Below the pieces are notes generated by a model. The model worked only from the letters and a program-made list of their open reading frames with translations. It had not been told where the DNA came from and did no database searches. The translations under genes were made by a program, and so were the position numbers. A stretch of 64,000 nucleotides of DNA from an uncultured Actinomycetes bacterium (GTDB lineage Bacteria; Actinomycetota; Coriobacteriia; Coriobacteriales; Atopobiaceae): NCBI GenBank assembly GCA_900315165.1, contig OMXZ01000015.1, positions 1 to 64,000 on the forward strand, read 5' to 3'. Positions 8,151-44,411 of this stretch are shown piece by piece. Position 1 is the first letter of the stretch. Each line of letters begins with the position of its first letter.

Positions 8151-8738
8151 CTACTCGCCATCGCCCTGCGCAGCCTCGTCAACAACCTTGAGGATATCTG
8201 AGGAATACGCGCGGATGTAGTTGAAGCCGTGATTGGCATCGAAGCGCATGCGGTCGGCCAGCGTGGCGCGGGTGGCATCGGACAGGTTGCCGTGGGCGAA
8301 GTCCAGAAGGCAGGTCAGCATGTCGCGGTACTCGGGGTCGCCGTGATAGCACTGGATGGCCTCGTCGATGAGGCCCCAGACCGCGTCCGAGCGCTCGGGC
8401 GAGGTCTTGCCGTAGGCCGCGAGGAAGCGGAAGGCCGCGAGCCGCACGGCCGAGGAGGTCTCGTCGAAGAGCGCGGCCTCGGCACCCTCGCAGGCGTCGG
8501 CGACCAGGTCGGCATGGCCCTCGGCCAGAAGCGTCAGCACATCGAGCACCTCCCAGCGCGTCTGCGCCTCGGTATGGTCGAGCGCCTCGACCAGCTGGCC
8601 GATGTAGGGCACCATCTGCTCCGGGTCCTCGTGCGCGCGCAGGGCGATCTCATGCGCGGCGTCCTGGCGCACGCGGCGACGTGCGCTGCTGAGGTTGGCC
8701 ACAAGGCCCTCCATCAGGATTTCAGTCTCTTCTGCCAT
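8151..8738 (-). CDS. HEAT-repeat protein
   Basis: A 195-residue all-helical soluble protein with repeated HEAT-like helix pairs: residues 9-35 (LVANLSSARRRVRQDAA...), 47-75 (LVEALDHTEAQTRWEVLDVL), 80-108 and beyond. HEAT repeats are protein or nucleic-acid binding scaffolds, and no catalytic residues are seen. It lies between the NYN-LOTUS gene and the SurA-like gene on the same strand with gaps of about 40 bp, so one transcript is likely. Its partner is unknown. Confidence 0.7.
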   Translation of the reverse strand: MAEETEILMEGLVANLSSARRRVRQDAAHEIALRAHEDPEQMVPYIGQLVEALDHTEAQTRWEVLDVLTLLAEGHADLVADACEGAEAALFDETSSAVRLAAFRFLAAYGKTSPERSDAVWGLIDEAIQCYHGDPEYRDMLTCLLDFAHGNLSDATRATLADRMRFDANHGFNYIRAYSSDILKVVDEAAQGDGE

Positions 8739-8775
8739 TACGATCTATCCTTTCCGTCCGATGCAGTCTGGTTGC

Positions 8776-9564
8776 CTATTCCTTCTCCTTGAAGCCGTCC
8801 ACGACCACCGTGCCGCTCTTTTGGTCGGTGTGGATCCCGAGGAAGCCGAGCTTGGCGGCCTCGCGCAGGAGATTGGTGAACGACCGGTAGCCATAGGTGC
8901 GCTCGGAGAACTGCGGCCGCTTGCGGCGCATCGTGTCCTTGATGCGGCTCGCGAGCACCGCGCTGTCCGTCTCGTGCTCGAGTGCGTCGATCGTCTCGAA
9001 GAGGAGCTGGTAGCACTCGTGCTTCTCCTTGGGCACCTTGCCCTTGTAGTCGGGCACGCCCGCGTTGCTCACGATGTCCTCGTAAAAGATGAACTCGTCG
9101 CAGTTCTCGGAGAGCAGGGGGCTCGTGGCGTCCTTCATGCCCACGCCGATGACCGTCTTGCCAAACTCCTTGAGCTTGGCGACCAAGGGCGAGAAGTCGG
9201 AGTCGCCCGAGAGGATCGCGAAGGTGTCGATGTGGTCGCGCGTGAGGCACATCTCCACGGCGTCGACCGACAGGCGGATGTCCGCCGAGTTCTTGCCCGT
9301 ATAGGCGCGGTCGGGGATCTCGATGAGCTCGATGCCCAGCTCGTGCAGGGGCGTGATCGCGTCGTCAAAGCGCTGCCAGTCGCAATAGGCGCGCTTTGCC
9401 ACGATGCGGCCCTTGTCCACGAGGCGCTCGAAGATACGCTTGACGTCGGGTCGGGGGCCGGCCTCCTGATGGCCGTTGCGCTTGCGCCTGCCGGTGCCCA
9501 GCGCGAGGTTCTCGTAGTCGATGAACACCGCCATCGAGCTCTGCTGAATGTCGTTTTCCGTCAT
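8776..9564 (-). CDS. NYN-domain ribonuclease-like protein with C-terminal OST-HTH/LOTUS domain
   Basis: A 262-residue protein. Residues 11-165 are a NYN (PIN-like, LabA/DUF88) domain with acidic residues in the expected places: FIDYEN (D16), NSADIRL (D95) and SGDSDF (D121, D123). Residues 183-258 match the LOTUS/OST-HTH winged helix (YQLLFETIDAL, then YGYRSFTNLLREA and GFLGI). Proteins of this pairing are thought to be metal-dependent RNases guided by the RNA-binding LOTUS domain. The open frame extends to 9909, but the ATG at 9562-9564 with AGGAACGAG upstream gives the natural domain start. It is followed by the HEAT gene. Confidence 0.88.
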   Translation of the reverse strand: MTENDIQQSSMAVFIDYENLALGTGRRKRNGHQEAGPRPDVKRIFERLVDKGRIVAKRAYCDWQRFDDAITPLHELGIELIEIPDRAYTGKNSADIRLSVDAVEMCLTRDHIDTFAILSGDSDFSPLVAKLKEFGKTVIGVGMKDATSPLLSENCDEFIFYEDIVSNAGVPDYKGKVPKEKHECYQLLFETIDALEHETDSAVLASRIKDTMRRKRPQFSERTYGYRSFTNLLREAAKLGFLGIHTDQKSGTVVVDGFKEKE

Positions 9565-31274: not shown

Positions 31275-31532
31275 ATGCCGAAAATCAAGCCTGTCTCTGA
31301 CATGAGAAACTACAACGAGGTGCTGCGAGACGTCCTGCCGGGCTCCCCGGTCTTTCTCACCCTCAATGGCCGCGGCCGTTACGCAGTGCTCGACCTAAGG
31401 GATTACGAGCGCTTAGAAGCTTCCGTTGGCCTCCTCAACCAACTCGAAGAGGGTCGCCGGTCATACGAAGAAAATAGCGGCATTACTGCAGAAGACATGC
31501 GCACGCGGATAAAGGCGCAGTTCAATGGCTAA
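31275..31532 (+). CDS. Phd/YefM-family antitoxin
   Basis: An 85-residue antitoxin. The N-terminal half is the Phd/YefM DNA-binding fold (PVSDMRNYNEVLRDV, SPVFLTLNGRGRYAVLDLRDYERLEA). The C-terminal half is an acidic helix and tail that would wrap the toxin. ATG at 31275 with AAAGGA. It overlaps the toxin gene by 8 bp and sits behind a perfect 18-bp palindrome, so it should repress its own promoter. Confidence 0.88.
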   Translation: MPKIKPVSDMRNYNEVLRDVLPGSPVFLTLNGRGRYAVLDLRDYERLEASVGLLNQLEEGRRSYEENSGITAEDMRTRIKAQFNG

Positions 31533-31851
31533 AACGATCTTCTCCCCCGCCTCACAGAGCGACCTCGGCAGCATCGCAGAATATGTCTCCGAGGAGCTCG
31601 GCAATCCAAAGGCTGCCATAGACACGGTCAACAGGATCATCGACAAGGCAGAGGTGCTTGGCGCATTTCCTCGCCGCGGCACTCCGCTCGATAACGTCTG
31701 CCCCGTACGAAGCGACTACCGTTTCATCGTCTGCGACAACTGGATGATTTTTTATTGGATCGAAGCGGAAACGCCCGTTGTGGCACGAGTGCTTTGGGGC
31801 TCCAGCGATTACGTGCGAGCGCTGTTCGATGACTCAACCGGCTTACGCTAG
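31525..31851 (+). CDS. ParE/RelE-superfamily toxin
   Basis: A 108-residue toxin of the RelE/ParE superfamily. It has an SDLGSIAEYVSEELGNPKAA helix pair, the FPRRGTPL turn and the DYRFIVCDNWMIFYW beta-strands. Family members cleave mRNA on the ribosome (RelE) or poison gyrase (ParE); which applies here cannot be told. Its stop overlaps the 3' end of the convergent Cof phosphatase gene by 4 bp. Confidence 0.87.
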   Translation: MAKTIFSPASQSDLGSIAEYVSEELGNPKAAIDTVNRIIDKAEVLGAFPRRGTPLDNVCPVRSDYRFIVCDNWMIFYWIEAETPVVARVLWGSSDYVRALFDDSTGLR

Positions 31852-32773: not shown

Positions 32774-34539
32774 TTACAGCGCGCGCCGCTGGTAGAGGCC
32801 GTTGTCGATGAAGCCGAGGCTGCGATAGTACTCACGCGTGCCCACGGATGAGATCACATTGACGCTGGTGCAGCCGGCCTTGCGCGCGATGCGGCAGGCT
32901 TCCTCAACCAAGCGGCGGCCGAGACCACGGTGTTGGGCGTTGCTATCGCCGACGCCCAGATGAGCCGAGCGACCGTACACGTGAACCTCGCGAATCATGG
33001 CCTCGCCCACGCCCACGCGCAGGTCGGCAGCATGGTCCCGCACGTATGCTTGGTCCGGCAGCGACAGCCGCAGGAAGCCCGCGATCCCGCCCTCGGGCGT
33101 CACCCATTGGATGAAATGCTCGGTCGTCACGGTCGTCTCGTAGGGAACATCCTCCAAGGTCAGGTCGTCGAGACGGACACGCTCGCCCTGGATCTCCCGC
33201 ATACGGATCTCGCGCACCTGTGAGCGCAGGCCACGCCGATCGATCGTCCCTTCCACCATCTGGCGGAGGTTGGTCTGCTTGTTGCCGTCGACGATGTCGG
33301 TGGAGGGGATGTCGCGGATCATGCGCGACACACGGGTCCACGCCGGCGTCGCCATGATGTCGCGCACGAGGATGTCGACCAGCTCGTCACGGGTATAGGG
33401 GCGCCAGGCACCCTCGTCGCGCAGCCGCATGAGACCCGTGCCGGCGACCTCATCGGGCGCAAAGGCGGTCCCCGTCGCGAAGGCACGGTAATCGTCCACA
33501 TCGGCCTGGGGCGTGGCACCGGCCAGGTTGAGCATGAAGTGGGCATGAATCTTGAAACCATATAGACGCGTCAGGGCAAAGGTATCCGCAATGCGGTCGA
33601 CCGTAAGACCTCGACCGTTGCGGTCGAGCAGGTCCTGACGGATGCCCTGCACGCCGATCTGGACCTTGGTGCAGCCGAGTTCGCGCATGAAGGTCAGACT
33701 CTCGGGCGTGATGGCATCGGGCCGCGTCTCCACGACGAGTCCCACGACACGGTGGTCAGCACGCTCGTTGACACGATGTTGTGCGCGCAGACTCTCGAGC
33801 GTGCTCGCCTGGCCTGCGGAAACGCGCTGCCAGGCAGGACTGTCGCGATAGAGCCCGGCGACCGCCTGGTTGTAGGTGAGCTCGCCAGCGTCGATACGGG
33901 CCTGGGTCGAAGCCGTCTGATCGCGGAGGGCGTCCGGCTCATCTGCCAGGCCCGCAGCGTGATAGGCATCGCGGATCTCCTGCACGCGGTCCCATGAGGC
34001 ATCGCCGTCGTTGAGCGCACGGAAGAGCTGCTCGACAAACCAGATTCGATAGTCACGCGGATAGTCGTCCCAGGTGCCGCCCAAGATGATCAGCTCGACC
34101 TTGTCGGTCGGATGGCCCATCTCGGAAAGAACGTGCAGACGCACCGCCACCTGCAGGTAGGGGTCGAAAAAGCTGTGCTCCGCCCGCTGACAGGCGGGCT
34201 CATCCCAGATGTAGCTCTTGGGCATCCGCACGTCGTTGGGGCAATAGAGACAGGTTCCGCCGCAAGGCCAGGGCTTGGTGAGGACCGAGATGGTCGCGAC
34301 GCCCGAGGCGGTACGGCGGGGCTTGACCTGCAGCACGCGCACAAGCTCGGCCTCGGTCGCCGGATCGATCCCCCAGCTTGCCCAGCGGGCGGGGTCGCCC
34401 GTCTTGACCTCGCGATAGTAGGGCAGCAGCTGCCGCTTGGCATAGTGGTCGGCGTTGTCGGAGATGCCGCGGTTGGCGTCGAGGATGGCGTTTCGCCGCG
34501 GCGAATGCGCGCTACTATCTCTAGGAGTATCTCTTCCAT
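32774..34539 (-). CDS. elp3: Elp3-type radical SAM/GNAT tRNA U34 enzyme, apparent N-terminal frameshift
   Basis: Makes the 5-carboxymethyl group on wobble uridine of tRNA from acetyl-CoA. The main frame carries LPYYREVKTGDP, the cluster motif PCGGTCLYCP, GGTWDDYPRDY, QIGVQGI and a C-terminal acetyltransferase domain (GLGRRLVEEACRIA). The first coding stretch seems to be in another frame: ATG at 34539 gives MEEILLEIVARIRRGET, which looks like a normal Elp3 N terminus, and then the frame changes near 34485 into AILDANRGISDNADHYAK. A small deletion (or an assembly error) would explain it. The in-frame ATG at 34549 overlaps the likely -10 box and has no ribosome-binding site. Confidence 0.8.
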
Positions 34540-34547
34540 AGATACGC

Positions 34548-34556
34548 ATTGTAACA
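34548..34556 (-). promoter_or_regulatory. Extended -10 promoter placed for a leaderless elp3 start
   Basis: On the minus strand TGTTACAAT (34556-34548) is an extended -10 box (TG-N-TACAAT). The ATG at 34539 begins 9 bases beyond the box, almost at the expected transcription start, and no Shine-Dalgarno sequence is present. This fits a leaderless mRNA. Confidence 0.5.
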
Positions 34557-34592
34557 GCCGTGCCCCGCGCACACCCCCGTCCTGGAAGGCCC

Positions 34593-35441
34593 ATGGACCG
34601 CGAAACCGCCCTCTTCCTCAACCTCATGACCTGCGAATTTTATCGCGACAACGTAGCGTCGTTTTCCGCCACGCGCCGGGCGCCGTGGGATGGGTGGCAG
34701 GCTCTTGCGGGCACATTGCACGAGGCGTGGGATACCAAGAAGGACAAGGCACGCACCGTGGCCGACCTCGCCTGCGGCAACCAACGGTTCGAGCGCTTTT
34801 TGATGGATGAATTTCCGGCTACGCCGTTCGCCTTCCGCACGTGGGACAACTGCGACCCGCTCGTTCGCGATAGCAGCGATCTGTCTGAGACAAACGTGTC
34901 GGTCACCCACCATCGCCTCGACATCGTGGACGCCCTTCTTGCTGGCGGCTCAATTGCGACTGGTTTCGAACTCTCGACGGCTGAATGCAATCTCGCGGTC
35001 TGCTTCGGCTTCTTCCACCACATCCCGACGCCGCAGGCACGAGAGCGTGCCTTGTCGTGGCTGCTCGGAAACGTATGCCCCGGCGGCATCGTTGCCCTCT
35101 CACTCTGGCGGTTCGCCGATGACGACCGCACGCGTGCGAAGGCCGAGCGGGCGACAGAGCGCGCTCTCGCGAGCCTGTCCAGCGTCAATCCCGGGCTTGA
35201 CAACCAGCTCGCGCAAGGCGACTACCTGCTCGGTTGGAAGGACACCCGCTCGTCTTTCCGTTACTGCCACAGCTTCGAGGATAAGGAAGTCAACTGTTTG
35301 ATCGAGCTTGCGGCCAATCCCGTTGGAGACGCCCGAAAGGCAGGCGGGGCCGCTCGGCTGCTCGCCCGTTATCGCGCGGACGGCAAGAACGGCAGGTCAA
35401 ATGACTATCTCGTCTTCCGCAAGGAGGCCGCACATGAGTAA
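34593..35441 (+). CDS. Trm9/ALKBH8-like class I SAM methyltransferase
   Basis: A 282-residue SAM-dependent methyltransferase. After a short N terminus it has the pattern FYRDNVASFSATRRAPWDGW, close to the diagnostic FS-x-TR-x-x-PW segment of Trm9/ALKBH8 tRNA methyltransferases. Motif I follows (VADLACGN), then CFGFFHHIPTPQARERAL and PGGIVALSLW, which parallel the Trm9 HHL-x-T...GG...VW region. In eukaryotes Trm9 methylates the cm5U made by Elp3. Here the gene is divergent from elp3, about 50 bp away. ATG at 34593 with GGAAGG. The tRNA role is inference. Confidence 0.72.
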   Translation: MDRETALFLNLMTCEFYRDNVASFSATRRAPWDGWQALAGTLHEAWDTKKDKARTVADLACGNQRFERFLMDEFPATPFAFRTWDNCDPLVRDSSDLSETNVSVTHHRLDIVDALLAGGSIATGFELSTAECNLAVCFGFFHHIPTPQARERALSWLLGNVCPGGIVALSLWRFADDDRTRAKAERATERALASLSSVNPGLDNQLAQGDYLLGWKDTRSSFRYCHSFEDKEVNCLIELAANPVGDARKAGGAARLLARYRADGKNGRSNDYLVFRKEAAHE

Positions 35442-35721
35442 CGCCTCGTATGAGGAGGCCCGCGCCAAGCTGCGCTCCGCCGTGGTGGACCTCGGCTATC
35501 CCGTCGAGCTGGCGCTGGCGCTGGAAGCCCAGCTGGGATCCGAGTCCACCATGCTCAAAATGGCTTCCTATCTGCGCGGGGCCAAACCAGCCTCCATCGA
35601 GGAGATCGCCGACGAGGCCATCGCCATCGCGTCCTTCCGCGACACCTGGCGCGAGCGCAAGATCTCCGAGCATGCCAACGCCAAGATCACGGAGTTCTAC
35701 AACCGGTCCGACCGTCCATAA
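35434..35721 (+). CDS. Small helical protein coupled to the Trm9-like methyltransferase
   Basis: A 95-residue predicted all-helical protein (EEARAKLRSAVVDLG, LALEAQLGSESTMLKMASYL, PASIEEIADEAIAI...). Its ATG at 35434 lies 8 bp inside the methyltransferase gene and has AAGGAGG, so the two are translated together. It contains no Cys, so it is not a Trm112-type zinc partner. It may be a subunit or regulator of the methyltransferase; no family was recognised. Confidence 0.7.
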   Translation: MSNASYEEARAKLRSAVVDLGYPVELALALEAQLGSESTMLKMASYLRGAKPASIEEIADEAIAIASFRDTWRERKISEHANAKITEFYNRSDRP

Positions 35722-38270: not shown

Positions 38271-38594
38271 TCACGGCAGCATACGCGTGAGGTCACGTGA
38301 GCCATACACGAGGCGGCGCACTTCCATAACGTCGCCCATCACGACATAGAACACCATATAATTCCCCACGGAAAACCAGTAGTAAGGTTGGGGCCGATCA
38401 CGAGTGGTTCTGTATATTGGGGCCATAGTCGGTGCAGCCAGATGAGCAAGGATCCCCTTTTCGATCTCATCAACCAATCGTATTGCCGCGGCCCGGTTCT
38501 TTAGCACGTCGGAGATATAGGTAACGGTCTCTTCGAGGTCGTCCCAGAAAAGCGGAAGGTACTGAAGCTTATAGCGCAACGGCCTGTCCCCCAT
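38271..38594 (-). CDS. ParE/RelE-superfamily toxin
   Basis: A 107-residue toxin with the RelE/ParE plan: LQYLPLFWDDLEETVTYISDVLKN, AAIRLVDEIEKGI and the final strands YYWFSVGNYMVFYVV and VRRLVYGSRD. The chosen ATG at 38594 overlaps the antitoxin gene by 26 bp; the longer open frame to 38681 is antisense-like. Target (mRNA or gyrase) unknown. Confidence 0.86.
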   Translation of the reverse strand: MGDRPLRYKLQYLPLFWDDLEETVTYISDVLKNRAAAIRLVDEIEKGILAHLAAPTMAPIYRTTRDRPQPYYWFSVGNYMVFYVVMGDVMEVRRLVYGSRDLTRMLP

Positions 38595-38844
38595 CTCCCA
38601 GCACCTCCCGGATGGACCCGAATACGTCCTCATGCGAATACCTGAGAGATGTGGTGGCAGCCTGCCTATCCGCGGCGTCAAGCGCCTTCTCTACGGAGCC
38701 AGAGAGATACTCGTACTGCTCCATGCTCATGACCACCATCGAGCCATAGCCGTTCTTCGTCAAGAAGACAGGACCTTGCTCCTGCACATCTCGTTCCACC
38801 TCCGCGTAATGATTGCGCAGGTCAGATACCGGTCTGATATTCAC
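38569..38844 (-). CDS. Phd/YefM-family antitoxin
   Basis: A 91-residue antitoxin. Residues 1-55 match the Phd/YefM fold (RPVSDLRNHYAEVERDVQEQ, VFLTKNGYGSMVVMSMEQYEYL), and the C-terminal half is a helical neutralising tail. Start is GTG at 38844 with AAGGAGG. A 13-bp palindrome lies about 17 bp upstream. The protein is clearly related to the antitoxin at 31275 in its first 55 residues. Confidence 0.87.
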   Translation of the reverse strand: MNIRPVSDLRNHYAEVERDVQEQGPVFLTKNGYGSMVVMSMEQYEYLSGSVEKALDAADRQAATTSLRYSHEDVFGSIREVLGDGGQAVAL

Positions 38845-42095: not shown

Positions 42096-42167
42096 GTCTT
42101 CTCCTAGCGGATTGGTTGGTGTATCTGCTTGCGAGAGACATGGTAGGACGATTCATCTTGTTAGCGT

Positions 42168-42202
42168 TAATACCTATTCTTTTTGATTTGTTATAGGTAT
42201 TA
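42168..42202. promoter_or_regulatory. Inverted repeat operator between metE-like gene and lysR
   Basis: TAATACCTAT (42168-42177) and ATAGGTATTA (42193-42202) are exact 10-bp inverted repeats, 15 bp apart, in an AT-rich divergent promoter region. The form and position suit a LysR-type regulator that controls both itself and the MetE-like gene. Confidence 0.6.
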
Positions 42203-42268
42203 GCTATAAATAGAAAAGTACCGCCACAAGAAACCACCGTCACGAGGGATGGCGCGAAAAGGGGCCGA

Positions 42269-43192
42269 ATGAAACTCCAACAGCTTCGCTACCTGGTCGC
42301 CGTCGTCGGCTATGGGTCCTTCAACAAGGCCTCGCAGGCGCTCTACGTGAGCCAGCCCACCATGTCCAAGGCTGTGGAGGACCTGGAGCGCGAAATGGGC
42401 ATCACCATCCTGGCGCGCACAAACCGCGGCGTCACCCTGACGGAGGAGGGCACCCGCTTCCTCTCCTACGCCCGCCAGGTGGTCGAGCAGGCCGACCTCC
42501 TCGAGGAGCAATATAAGGGCAGCGCACCGGCACGGCGTGTCTTTTCCATCTCGTCGCAGCACTATGCCTTCGTTGTGAACGCCTTCGTCCGCCTGGTGGA
42601 GGAGGTCGGCCGCGACCGCTATGAGTTTTCCCTGCGCGAGGGCCGCACCGCCGACATCATCGAGGACGTGCGCCTGGGCCGTTCCGAGCTGGGCGTCATC
42701 TACCTCTCCCATTTCAACGCGGAGGTCATGGAGCGCGTCTGCCGAAACGCGGGGCTTTCCTTCACGGACCTTTTCACGGCGACGCCCCATGTCTTTGTAG
42801 GCAGAAACAACCCGCTCGCACAGCGTTCCTCGGTCACCCTCGATGACCTCGTCCCCTACCCGCGACTCTCCTACGACCAAGGCGAACGCAACAGCTTCTA
42901 CTTCGCCGAGGAGCTCTACAGTGTGGCCGAGGCCCCCAAGTCGATCGTGGTGCTGGACCGCGCGACCCTCTTCAACCTGCTGATCGGCCTCGACGGCTAC
43001 ACGATCTCCTCGGGCGTCCTCTCCTCCGACCTCAACGGCACCGACATCGTCTCCGTGCCGCTCGAGGGAGACGAGGTCATGCGCATCGGCTACCTGCAGC
43101 AGACGGGCCGGCCGCTCTCCCCCGTGGCAAAACGCTACCTCGGACACCTGCGCGCCTACATCGCCGAGTACGGCGAAGCGGACCCGCGCTAG
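42269..43192 (+). CDS. LysR-family transcriptional regulator
   Basis: A 307-residue LysR regulator. The winged helix-turn-helix is at residues 1-60 (MKLQQLRYLVAVV, YGSFNKASQALYVSQPTMSKAVEDLE), and the substrate-binding domain follows from about residue 90. It is likely to sense sulfur or methionine status, judging only by its divergent neighbour. ATG at 42269 with AGGGG at a suitable distance. Confidence 0.93.
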   Translation: MKLQQLRYLVAVVGYGSFNKASQALYVSQPTMSKAVEDLEREMGITILARTNRGVTLTEEGTRFLSYARQVVEQADLLEEQYKGSAPARRVFSISSQHYAFVVNAFVRLVEEVGRDRYEFSLREGRTADIIEDVRLGRSELGVIYLSHFNAEVMERVCRNAGLSFTDLFTATPHVFVGRNNPLAQRSSVTLDDLVPYPRLSYDQGERNSFYFAEELYSVAEAPKSIVVLDRATLFNLLIGLDGYTISSGVLSSDLNGTDIVSVPLEGDEVMRIGYLQQTGRPLSPVAKRYLGHLRAYIAEYGEADPR

Positions 43193-43247
43193 ATGGTGTC
43201 CGACGGTCGCCGTATCATCTTGGAAAGCAATGGGAGAGGAGACCGGC

Positions 43248-44411
43248 ATGGCAGAGGACAAGACAAGCACCCAGGCAACACCGCCGTCCAAGGTGTGGTG
43301 GTGCGACCTCCGCACCCATGGCAAGACGAGCCGCCCGCAGATGCTGGAGAGGCTCTGCCGCAAGGCGGGTCTTGCCGACATGGACCTCGCGAACAAGTTC
43401 GTGGCGATCAAGATGCATTTCGGGGAGCCCGGCAACCTGAGCTTCCTGCGCCCCAACTATGCGCGCGTCGTCGCCGACCTCGTGAGAGAGGCGGGTGGCA
43501 AGCCCTTCCTCACAGACTGCAACACGCTGTATGTCGGAGAGCGAAAAAACGCGCTCGACCACCTGGACGCGGCGACAGCAAACGGTTTCGGCCCGCTCAC
43601 GACCGGCTGCCAGGTCATCATCGCCGACGGCCTCAAGGGGACCGACGACGTGGAGGTGCCCGTGGCGGGCGGCGTCCATGTGCAGAATGCCAAGATCGGC
43701 CGCGCGATCATGGACGCGGATGTCTTTATCTCGCTCACCCATTTCAAGGGGCACGACCAGACCGGCTTCGGCGGGGCGCTCAAGAACATCGGCATGGGCT
43801 GCGGCAGCAGAGCGGGCAAGATGGAGCAGCATGCGGCGGGCAAACCCCACGTCGACCAAGACCGCTGCATCGGCTGCATGGCCTGCGCCAGCGCCTGCGC
43901 CCATGGGGCCATATCGCATCGCACCGAGCGCCCTCGCCTGGCCTCGATCGACCAGTCCAAGTGCGTCGGTTGCGGTCACTGCATGGGCGTCTGCAACCAG
44001 GACGCGATCGTCCCCAACGACGAGGCGGCCACCCAGATCCTGGGCGAGCGCATCGCTGAGTATTCCAAGGCGGTCTGCGACGGGCGGCCCTGCTTCCATG
44101 TGTCCCTCGTTATCGAAGTCTCGCCCAACTGCGACTGCTGGGAGCTCAACGACTCCCCCATGGTCCCGGACATCGGCTTTTTTGCGAGCTACGACCCGGT
44201 CGCCCTCGACCAGGCCTGCGTCGACGCGGTCAACAGCGCGCCGACAAACCCACTCTCCATCCTGGCAGACGAGGAGCATGCGCACCCGGACGACCCCCGC
44301 ATCCACGACCACCTGCACATGGCCAACCCCAACACCAGCTGGGAGGCCACGCTCGAGCACGCGGAGAAGATCGGCCACGGTACGAGGAAATACGAGCTCA
44401 TCAAGGTTTAG
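43248..44411 (+). CDS. DUF362 protein with two [4Fe-4S] ferredoxin motifs
   Basis: A 387-residue iron-sulfur protein. DUF362 covers about residues 30-200 (FVAIKMHFGEPGN, KPFLTDCNTLY, FISLTHFKGH, GFGGALKNIGMG). Two ferredoxin clusters follow, CIGCMACASACAHG and CVGCGHCMGVCNQ, and then a second DUF362 part (FFASYDPVALDQAC). The partner and reaction are unknown; electron transfer is expected. ATG at 43248 with AGGAG is chosen over 43230. Confidence 0.9.
   Translation: MAEDKTSTQATPPSKVWWCDLRTHGKTSRPQMLERLCRKAGLADMDLANKFVAIKMHFGEPGNLSFLRPNYARVVADLVREAGGKPFLTDCNTLYVGERKNALDHLDAATANGFGPLTTGCQVIIADGLKGTDDVEVPVAGGVHVQNAKIGRAIMDADVFISLTHFKGHDQTGFGGALKNIGMGCGSRAGKMEQHAAGKPHVDQDRCIGCMACASACAHGAISHRTERPRLASIDQSKCVGCGHCMGVCNQDAIVPNDEAATQILGERIAEYSKAVCDGRPCFHVSLVIEVSPNCDCWELNDSPMVPDIGFFASYDPVALDQACVDAVNSAPTNPLSILADEEHAHPDDPRIHDHLHMANPNTSWEATLEHAEKIGHGTRKYELIKV

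Follow-up and report, generated by a model that had tools for sequence, protein, structure and literature searches.

The window, that is the whole stretch of 64,000 nucleotides that was analysed, contains two divergently oriented genes, which represent a gene pair widespread in bacteria, in a copy that is either damaged or misassembled. On the minus strand, positions 32774..34549 correspond to an elp3 gene, encoding radical SAM and GNAT domains and damaged here; on the plus strand, positions 34593..35441 encode, in an intact frame, a Trm9-like class I SAM-dependent methyltransferase of 282 aa, predicted to act as a cm5U34 carboxyl O-methyltransferase. The latter overlaps by 8 bp a Cys-free ORF of 95 aa (35434..35721, plus strand), predicted to be helical. 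Gene order and overlap agree with those described in an earlier note on this DNA, and the motifs it had reported for the methyltransferase, FS-x-TR-x-x-PW, FFHHIPT and PGG...LSLW, are present where it had placed them.

The methyltransferase ATG at 34593 is backed by homolog alignment, and is separated by a divergent intergenic stretch (34540..34592) from the conserved elp3 start, an ATG at 34539. The spacing of about 50 bp given in the earlier note holds, being 53 bp, when measured from this conserved start; the alternative ATG at 34549, which leaves a 43-bp gap, is part of a shifted elp3 frame. No match to the sigma-70 consensus was found within the 34540-34592 region, nor any conserved RNA family in the elp3-methyltransferase region.

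The window Elp3 scores 378 bits in the NCBIfam search with TIGR01211, against a cut-off of 350, contains Radical_SAM and Acetyltransf_1 domains above the Pfam cut-off and carries the radical SAM Cys motif CGGTCLYC; its best PDB matches are the Dehalococcoides (ranking first), Methanocaldococcus and eukaryotic Elp3 proteins. Coriobacterial Elp3 is divergent from the archaeal type, and its radical SAM domain is longer by an inserted segment of about 65 residues: the spacing from GGT to ETRPD is mostly 120-130 residues in the Coriobacterial proteins (the window and loci L037-L116), as against 55-57 in archaeal-type ones.

The elp3 frame turned out to be broken when compared with that of the nearest relative, G422, a member of the same genus with an Elp3 86% identical to that of the window. 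Close to the 5' end of the gene (34480..34490, about 34486; alignment with the G422 locus, L158), a 25-bp deletion shifts the frame, so that the conserved N-terminus MEEILLEIVARIRRGETP is no longer read together with the remainder, and this N-terminus is encoded in a separate ORF (34090-34572). A second deletion, of 24 bp and in frame, scored against G422, is located at 33440..33450 (about 33446), and removes the block V-K-L-Y-P-C-A-L, kept in all 82 other Elp3 sequences spanning the site and missing in the window alone. The deleted block contains K302 and Y304, in the MinElp3 numbering verified on PDB chain 6ia8; mutation of these residues in MinElp3 inactivates tRNA modification, Y304F being partly active (PMC13315578). 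As sequenced, the Elp3 of this genome is very unlikely to be an active form. Because its elp3 is frameshifted, and is missing two residues without which cm5U is not formed, the pathway discussed below is doubtful in the window organism: probably, either it is off in this genome or the sequence is faulty.

Any loss of elp3 would be recent, since comparison with G422 gives elp3 a dN/dS ratio of 0.11 and the methyltransferase one of 0.31, and the several indels found in the latter are all frame-preserving. Alternatively, the elp3 deletions may be assembly errors within a functional locus, an explanation concerning the window only and compatible with the main one, to which we assign a sizeable probability, somewhat short of an even chance. 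Apart from the deletions elp3 is strongly constrained, and the genome is a draft of 80 contigs, in which frame breaks occur elsewhere, in 2 of the 40 genes compared with G422 and in MnmA at a contig edge; however, assembly errors do not usually take the form of two separate deletions, here of 24 and 25 bp, and the neighbouring HAD gene features no indel relative to G422. In the window, the G422 matches at 8154-9250 and 42112-43537 are split over two frames, either by frameshifts or by draft errors. The MnmA matches of the same genome (G000:C33:4-764) consist of two pieces in differing frames, at a contig edge.

The 95-residue protein had been proposed as a possible replacement for Trm112. An AF2 model likewise gives it four helices (pLDDT 83.6), but an all-helical protein contrasts with the Zn-knuckle beta fold of Trm112, and its distribution also speaks against the proposed role. 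Homologs were found in just 5 of the 149 genomes of the class, and in the three genomes inspected they are not linked to elp3; the ORF adjoins the methyltransferase only in the window and in one sister species, the nearest relative, while in G096 a homolog is present without any methyltransferase. Searches of Pfam, NCBIfam and PHROG returned no match. The protein is judged to be a passenger, rather than a conserved part of the elp3-methyltransferase pair.

The association of the two main genes was evaluated in 149 genomes of Coriobacteriia. A full Elp3 was found in 62 of them, 61 of which also contain the methyltransferase, absent from all 87 genomes without Elp3 (Fisher 1.5e-41, a figure which, the genomes being related, is not an independent-sample probability). 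Co-occurrence was matched genome by genome across the two survey tables; partial matches to the Elp3 model, far under the cut-off and spanning part of the radical SAM domain, were left uncounted. The sole exception is G096, where Elp3 features all the checked motifs and the methyltransferase was not found. Elp3 and methyltransferase are jointly missing from several genera, and also from G056, other sampled members of whose genus carry both.

Physical linkage is similarly conserved. A scan of named genomes, including Collinsella, Slackia, Gordonibacter, Adlercreutzia, Atopobium, termite-gut lineages and others, identified 80 methyltransferase loci, all of them (80/80) accompanied by elp3, nearly always divergent and no more than a few hundred bases away. 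In G136, whose chromosome is one long contig, the two genes lie 240 kb apart, and both are retained. In G039 (L161, 3539-5300) neither gene retains its 5' part and the 3' parts are left, which fits a single deletion spanning the shared upstream region. In a survey of 296 Actinomycetota genomes, the same 23 carry both genes, and six of these fall outside Coriobacteriia, with an archaeal-type Elp3 scoring about 600 bits and a distant methyltransferase homolog of 234-242 aa. The two genes are divergent in G180, G216, G392 and G204, in the last case with one intervening gene, while in G353 and G382 they lie where contigs end; the isolated genes of G018, G353 and G382 are apparent only, being explained by contig ends. 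The linkage to elp3, on which the earlier note had relied, is kept across the class and recurs in other Actinomycetota: the pairing is more than chance, as it is found in dozens of genomes.

The possibility of a third pathway gene located between the two was considered and rejected, since the intervening genes vary by genus, as expected for passengers: judging from their sequences, they include an MFS-like transporter in L039, L049 and L064, and a radical SAM-like gene in L084. No tRNA genes were found in these intervening regions. In Senegalimassilia (L041, 4671-5864) a cysteine desulfurase-like gene, which could serve U34 thiolation, lies between the pair; unrelated genes are found at this place in other genera. 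A second methyltransferase copy, distant from the elp3-linked one, was observed in one genome (G058:C4:255276-256094).

Relationships of the methyltransferase were analyzed by profile searches covering 177635 PDB sequences. A profile of 23 Coriobacterial sequences selects Yarrowia Trm9 (5cm2) as the best match, at 9e-7, with the runner-up at 1.8e-4. The same protein ranks first, at 1.9e-20, with a profile of the six intermediate actinobacterial homologs, and the aligned part, which reaches position 222 of the 239 in the profile, extends beyond the Rossmann core into the C-terminal RYxH region, while the other matches listed stop near the Rossmann core. The Coriobacterial and intermediate groups align with each other over their full length (hhalign E 2.4e-28). 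The methyltransferase is shown by these comparisons to be Trm9-related, in agreement with the parallel drawn in the earlier note, and in the profile searches does not group with metabolite methyltransferases.

Further support comes from the substrate site. In yeast Trm9, mutation of R29, H115, R241, Y243 or N271 impairs tRNA binding and kcat (PMC5372719). Four of these positions, R29, H115, R241 and N271, correspond to R28, H142, R223 and N270 of the window protein, and are invariant in 69 sequences (63 Coriobacterial homologs and the 6 intermediates). The yeast Trm9 sequence with which the 5cm2 letters were obtained is one residue short somewhere before R241, and R241, Y243 and N271 were therefore mapped by identity of the motifs rather than by residue number. 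The fifth position, Tyr243, is a Cys in 60 of the 63 Coriobacterial homologs, and the six intermediates have Cys, Tyr, Phe or Val there; across all 69 sequences Ala is also found, so that this residue is variable among relatives.

Eukaryotic Trm9 enzymes require Trm112 (PMC5372719). The Elp3-bearing genomes, of which that of the window is 88.7% complete, yielded no free protein of Trm112 size, with one possible exception in G216, and for this reason the methyltransferase is referred to as Trm9-like, rather than Trm9. Matches to PF03966 (Trm112) are weak and nearly all contained within long frames; the G216 exception is a 79-aa frame with a weak partial match. As for the alternative modification machinery, MnmG, the enzyme that bacteria usually employ at U34, exceeded the cut-off in one genome of the class, G071, itself devoid of Elp3, and was not found in the six Elp3-bearing Actinomycetota outside Coriobacteriia. 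MnmA, in contrast, was found in 58 of 59 genomes, and is nearly universal in the class.

Taken together, elp3 and the divergent methyltransferase probably constitute a two-enzyme wobble-uridine pathway of this clade. Elp3 would use SAM and acetyl-CoA to place a carboxymethyl group on C5 of tRNA U34, producing cm5U, and the Trm9-like enzyme would then convert cm5U to mcm5U by SAM-dependent methylation of the carboxylate just introduced, acting without a Trm112 partner; in tRNAs for Lys, Glu and Gln, MnmA may supply the 2-thio group (mcm5s2U). As MnmG is missing, the pathway is proposed to be a stand-in for MnmE-MnmG. Substrate and reaction, product, target tRNAs and Trm112 independence are those that we infer from the named families. 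The whole scheme, from Elp3-made cm5U to Trm112-free methylation and replacement of MnmE-MnmG, is the prediction that we favour for the clade, and make with fair confidence. The mcm5U34-type modification predicted by the earlier note stands in this form for the clade, by virtue of co-occurrence, linkage and Trm9 relatedness, and is doubtful in the organism from which the window derives. Points counted against the clade pathway are the change of Tyr243 to Cys, the top position of METTL6 in a structural comparison (see below), the failure to find Trm112, the G096 exception and the damage to the window elp3.

Some of these points would suit an enzyme that follows Elp3 at this wobble base, yet whose product differs from the mcm5U methyl ester, or which catalyzes a further step. 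The genomic facts tie the methyltransferase to Elp3 and nothing more, and it has diverged from Trm9, with 15% identity in the Foldseek alignment, where Trm9 is second (E 1e-10); the missing Trm112 and the Cys at position 243 also leave room for a different product. Invariance of four out of five Trm9 substrate-site residues, and the first rank of Trm9 among PDB profile matches, make this reading unlikely.

The AlphaFold2 model of the methyltransferase (pLDDT 91.7) was also searched with VIA-align, which placed METTL6, a tRNA m3C32 methyltransferase, first, with a Z of 20.1 over 232 residues, while Trm9 was not among the best 50 matches listed. The window enzyme might accordingly belong to the METTL2/6/8-like m3C32 methyltransferases, or be some other enzyme of the anticodon loop, its linkage to elp3 serving shared regulation. 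METTL6 shares with it the class I fold and acts, as the enzyme proposed here would, on the tRNA anticodon loop, although on a different base; yet high scores are common to all class I methyltransferases, so that the fold leaves subfamilies undivided, and the gaps in Z between them are modest. Moreover, METTL6 was unmatched in the profile search up to E 1, and both the Trm9-type N- and C-terminal motifs and the strict co-occurrence with Elp3 argue against this assignment, which we consider very improbable. That a metabolite methyltransferase neighbours elp3 by accident, as the sub-threshold Methyltransf_23 match, the only one obtained from Pfam, might suggest, is hardly credible, and was already disfavoured, given the 61/62 versus 0/87 distribution, the recurrence in other Actinomycetota families and the retention of both genes, unlinked, in G136.

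The proposed Elp3 and Trm9-like pathway resembles the eukaryotic and archaeal Elp3-Trm9(-Trm112) system, which in animals has ALKBH8, in that an Elp3 with radical SAM and GNAT domains adjoins a methyltransferase related to Trm9, whose substrate site has the Arg, His, Arg and Asn; it differs in the bacterial host, in the Cys replacing Tyr243 and in the free Trm112 that was not found. Putative elp3 and trm9 genes are also clustered in Sulfolobus, according to a 2017 review, in which bacterial relatives of Trm9 were reported as not found (PMC5372719). A 2020 review assigned mcm5U to archaea and eukaryotes, not to bacteria (PMC7694415). Another review of the same year spoke of Elp3 in a single bacterial clade, Dehalococcoides, where direct evidence for xcm5U34 was absent (PMC7663514), while a 2026 paper reports Elp3 in numerous bacteria (PMC13315578). 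The D. mccartyi protein (DmcElp3) is, like those described here, a stand-alone bacterial Elp3, and is the top PDB match, a methyltransferase partner not being mentioned in that review's passages on it (PMC7663514). MnmE-MnmG(-MnmC) also modifies C5 of U34 in bacterial tRNAs, as described in the same review (PMC7663514), but by a different chemistry, leading to cmnm5U, nm5U or mnm5U, and its MnmG is missing from the Elp3-bearing genomes. A literature search found no reports of bacterial mcm5U or of Coriobacterial Elp3, and the papers found contain no nucleoside analysis for Coriobacteriia with the pair.

On balance, it appears probable that much of this class of gut bacteria, along with some other Actinomycetota, makes mcm5U or mcm5s2U via a Trm112-independent enzyme of the Trm9 type, relying on Elp3 chemistry and MnmA thiolation instead of MnmE-MnmG. 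If this is true, bacterial mcm5U would be directly testable in gut bacteria that can be grown in culture, Collinsella and Slackia among them, and a possibly Trm112-free Trm9 would be available for comparison with the human ALKBH8 domain; the pathway would also hint at how NNA/NNG codons are decoded in bacteria that lack MnmG.

Small ORFs were also observed in two pairs, one on either side of the locus, at 31275-31851 and 38271-38844 of the window. On reading their sequences, each pair appears to encode a putative Phd/YefM antitoxin and a RelE/ParE toxin.
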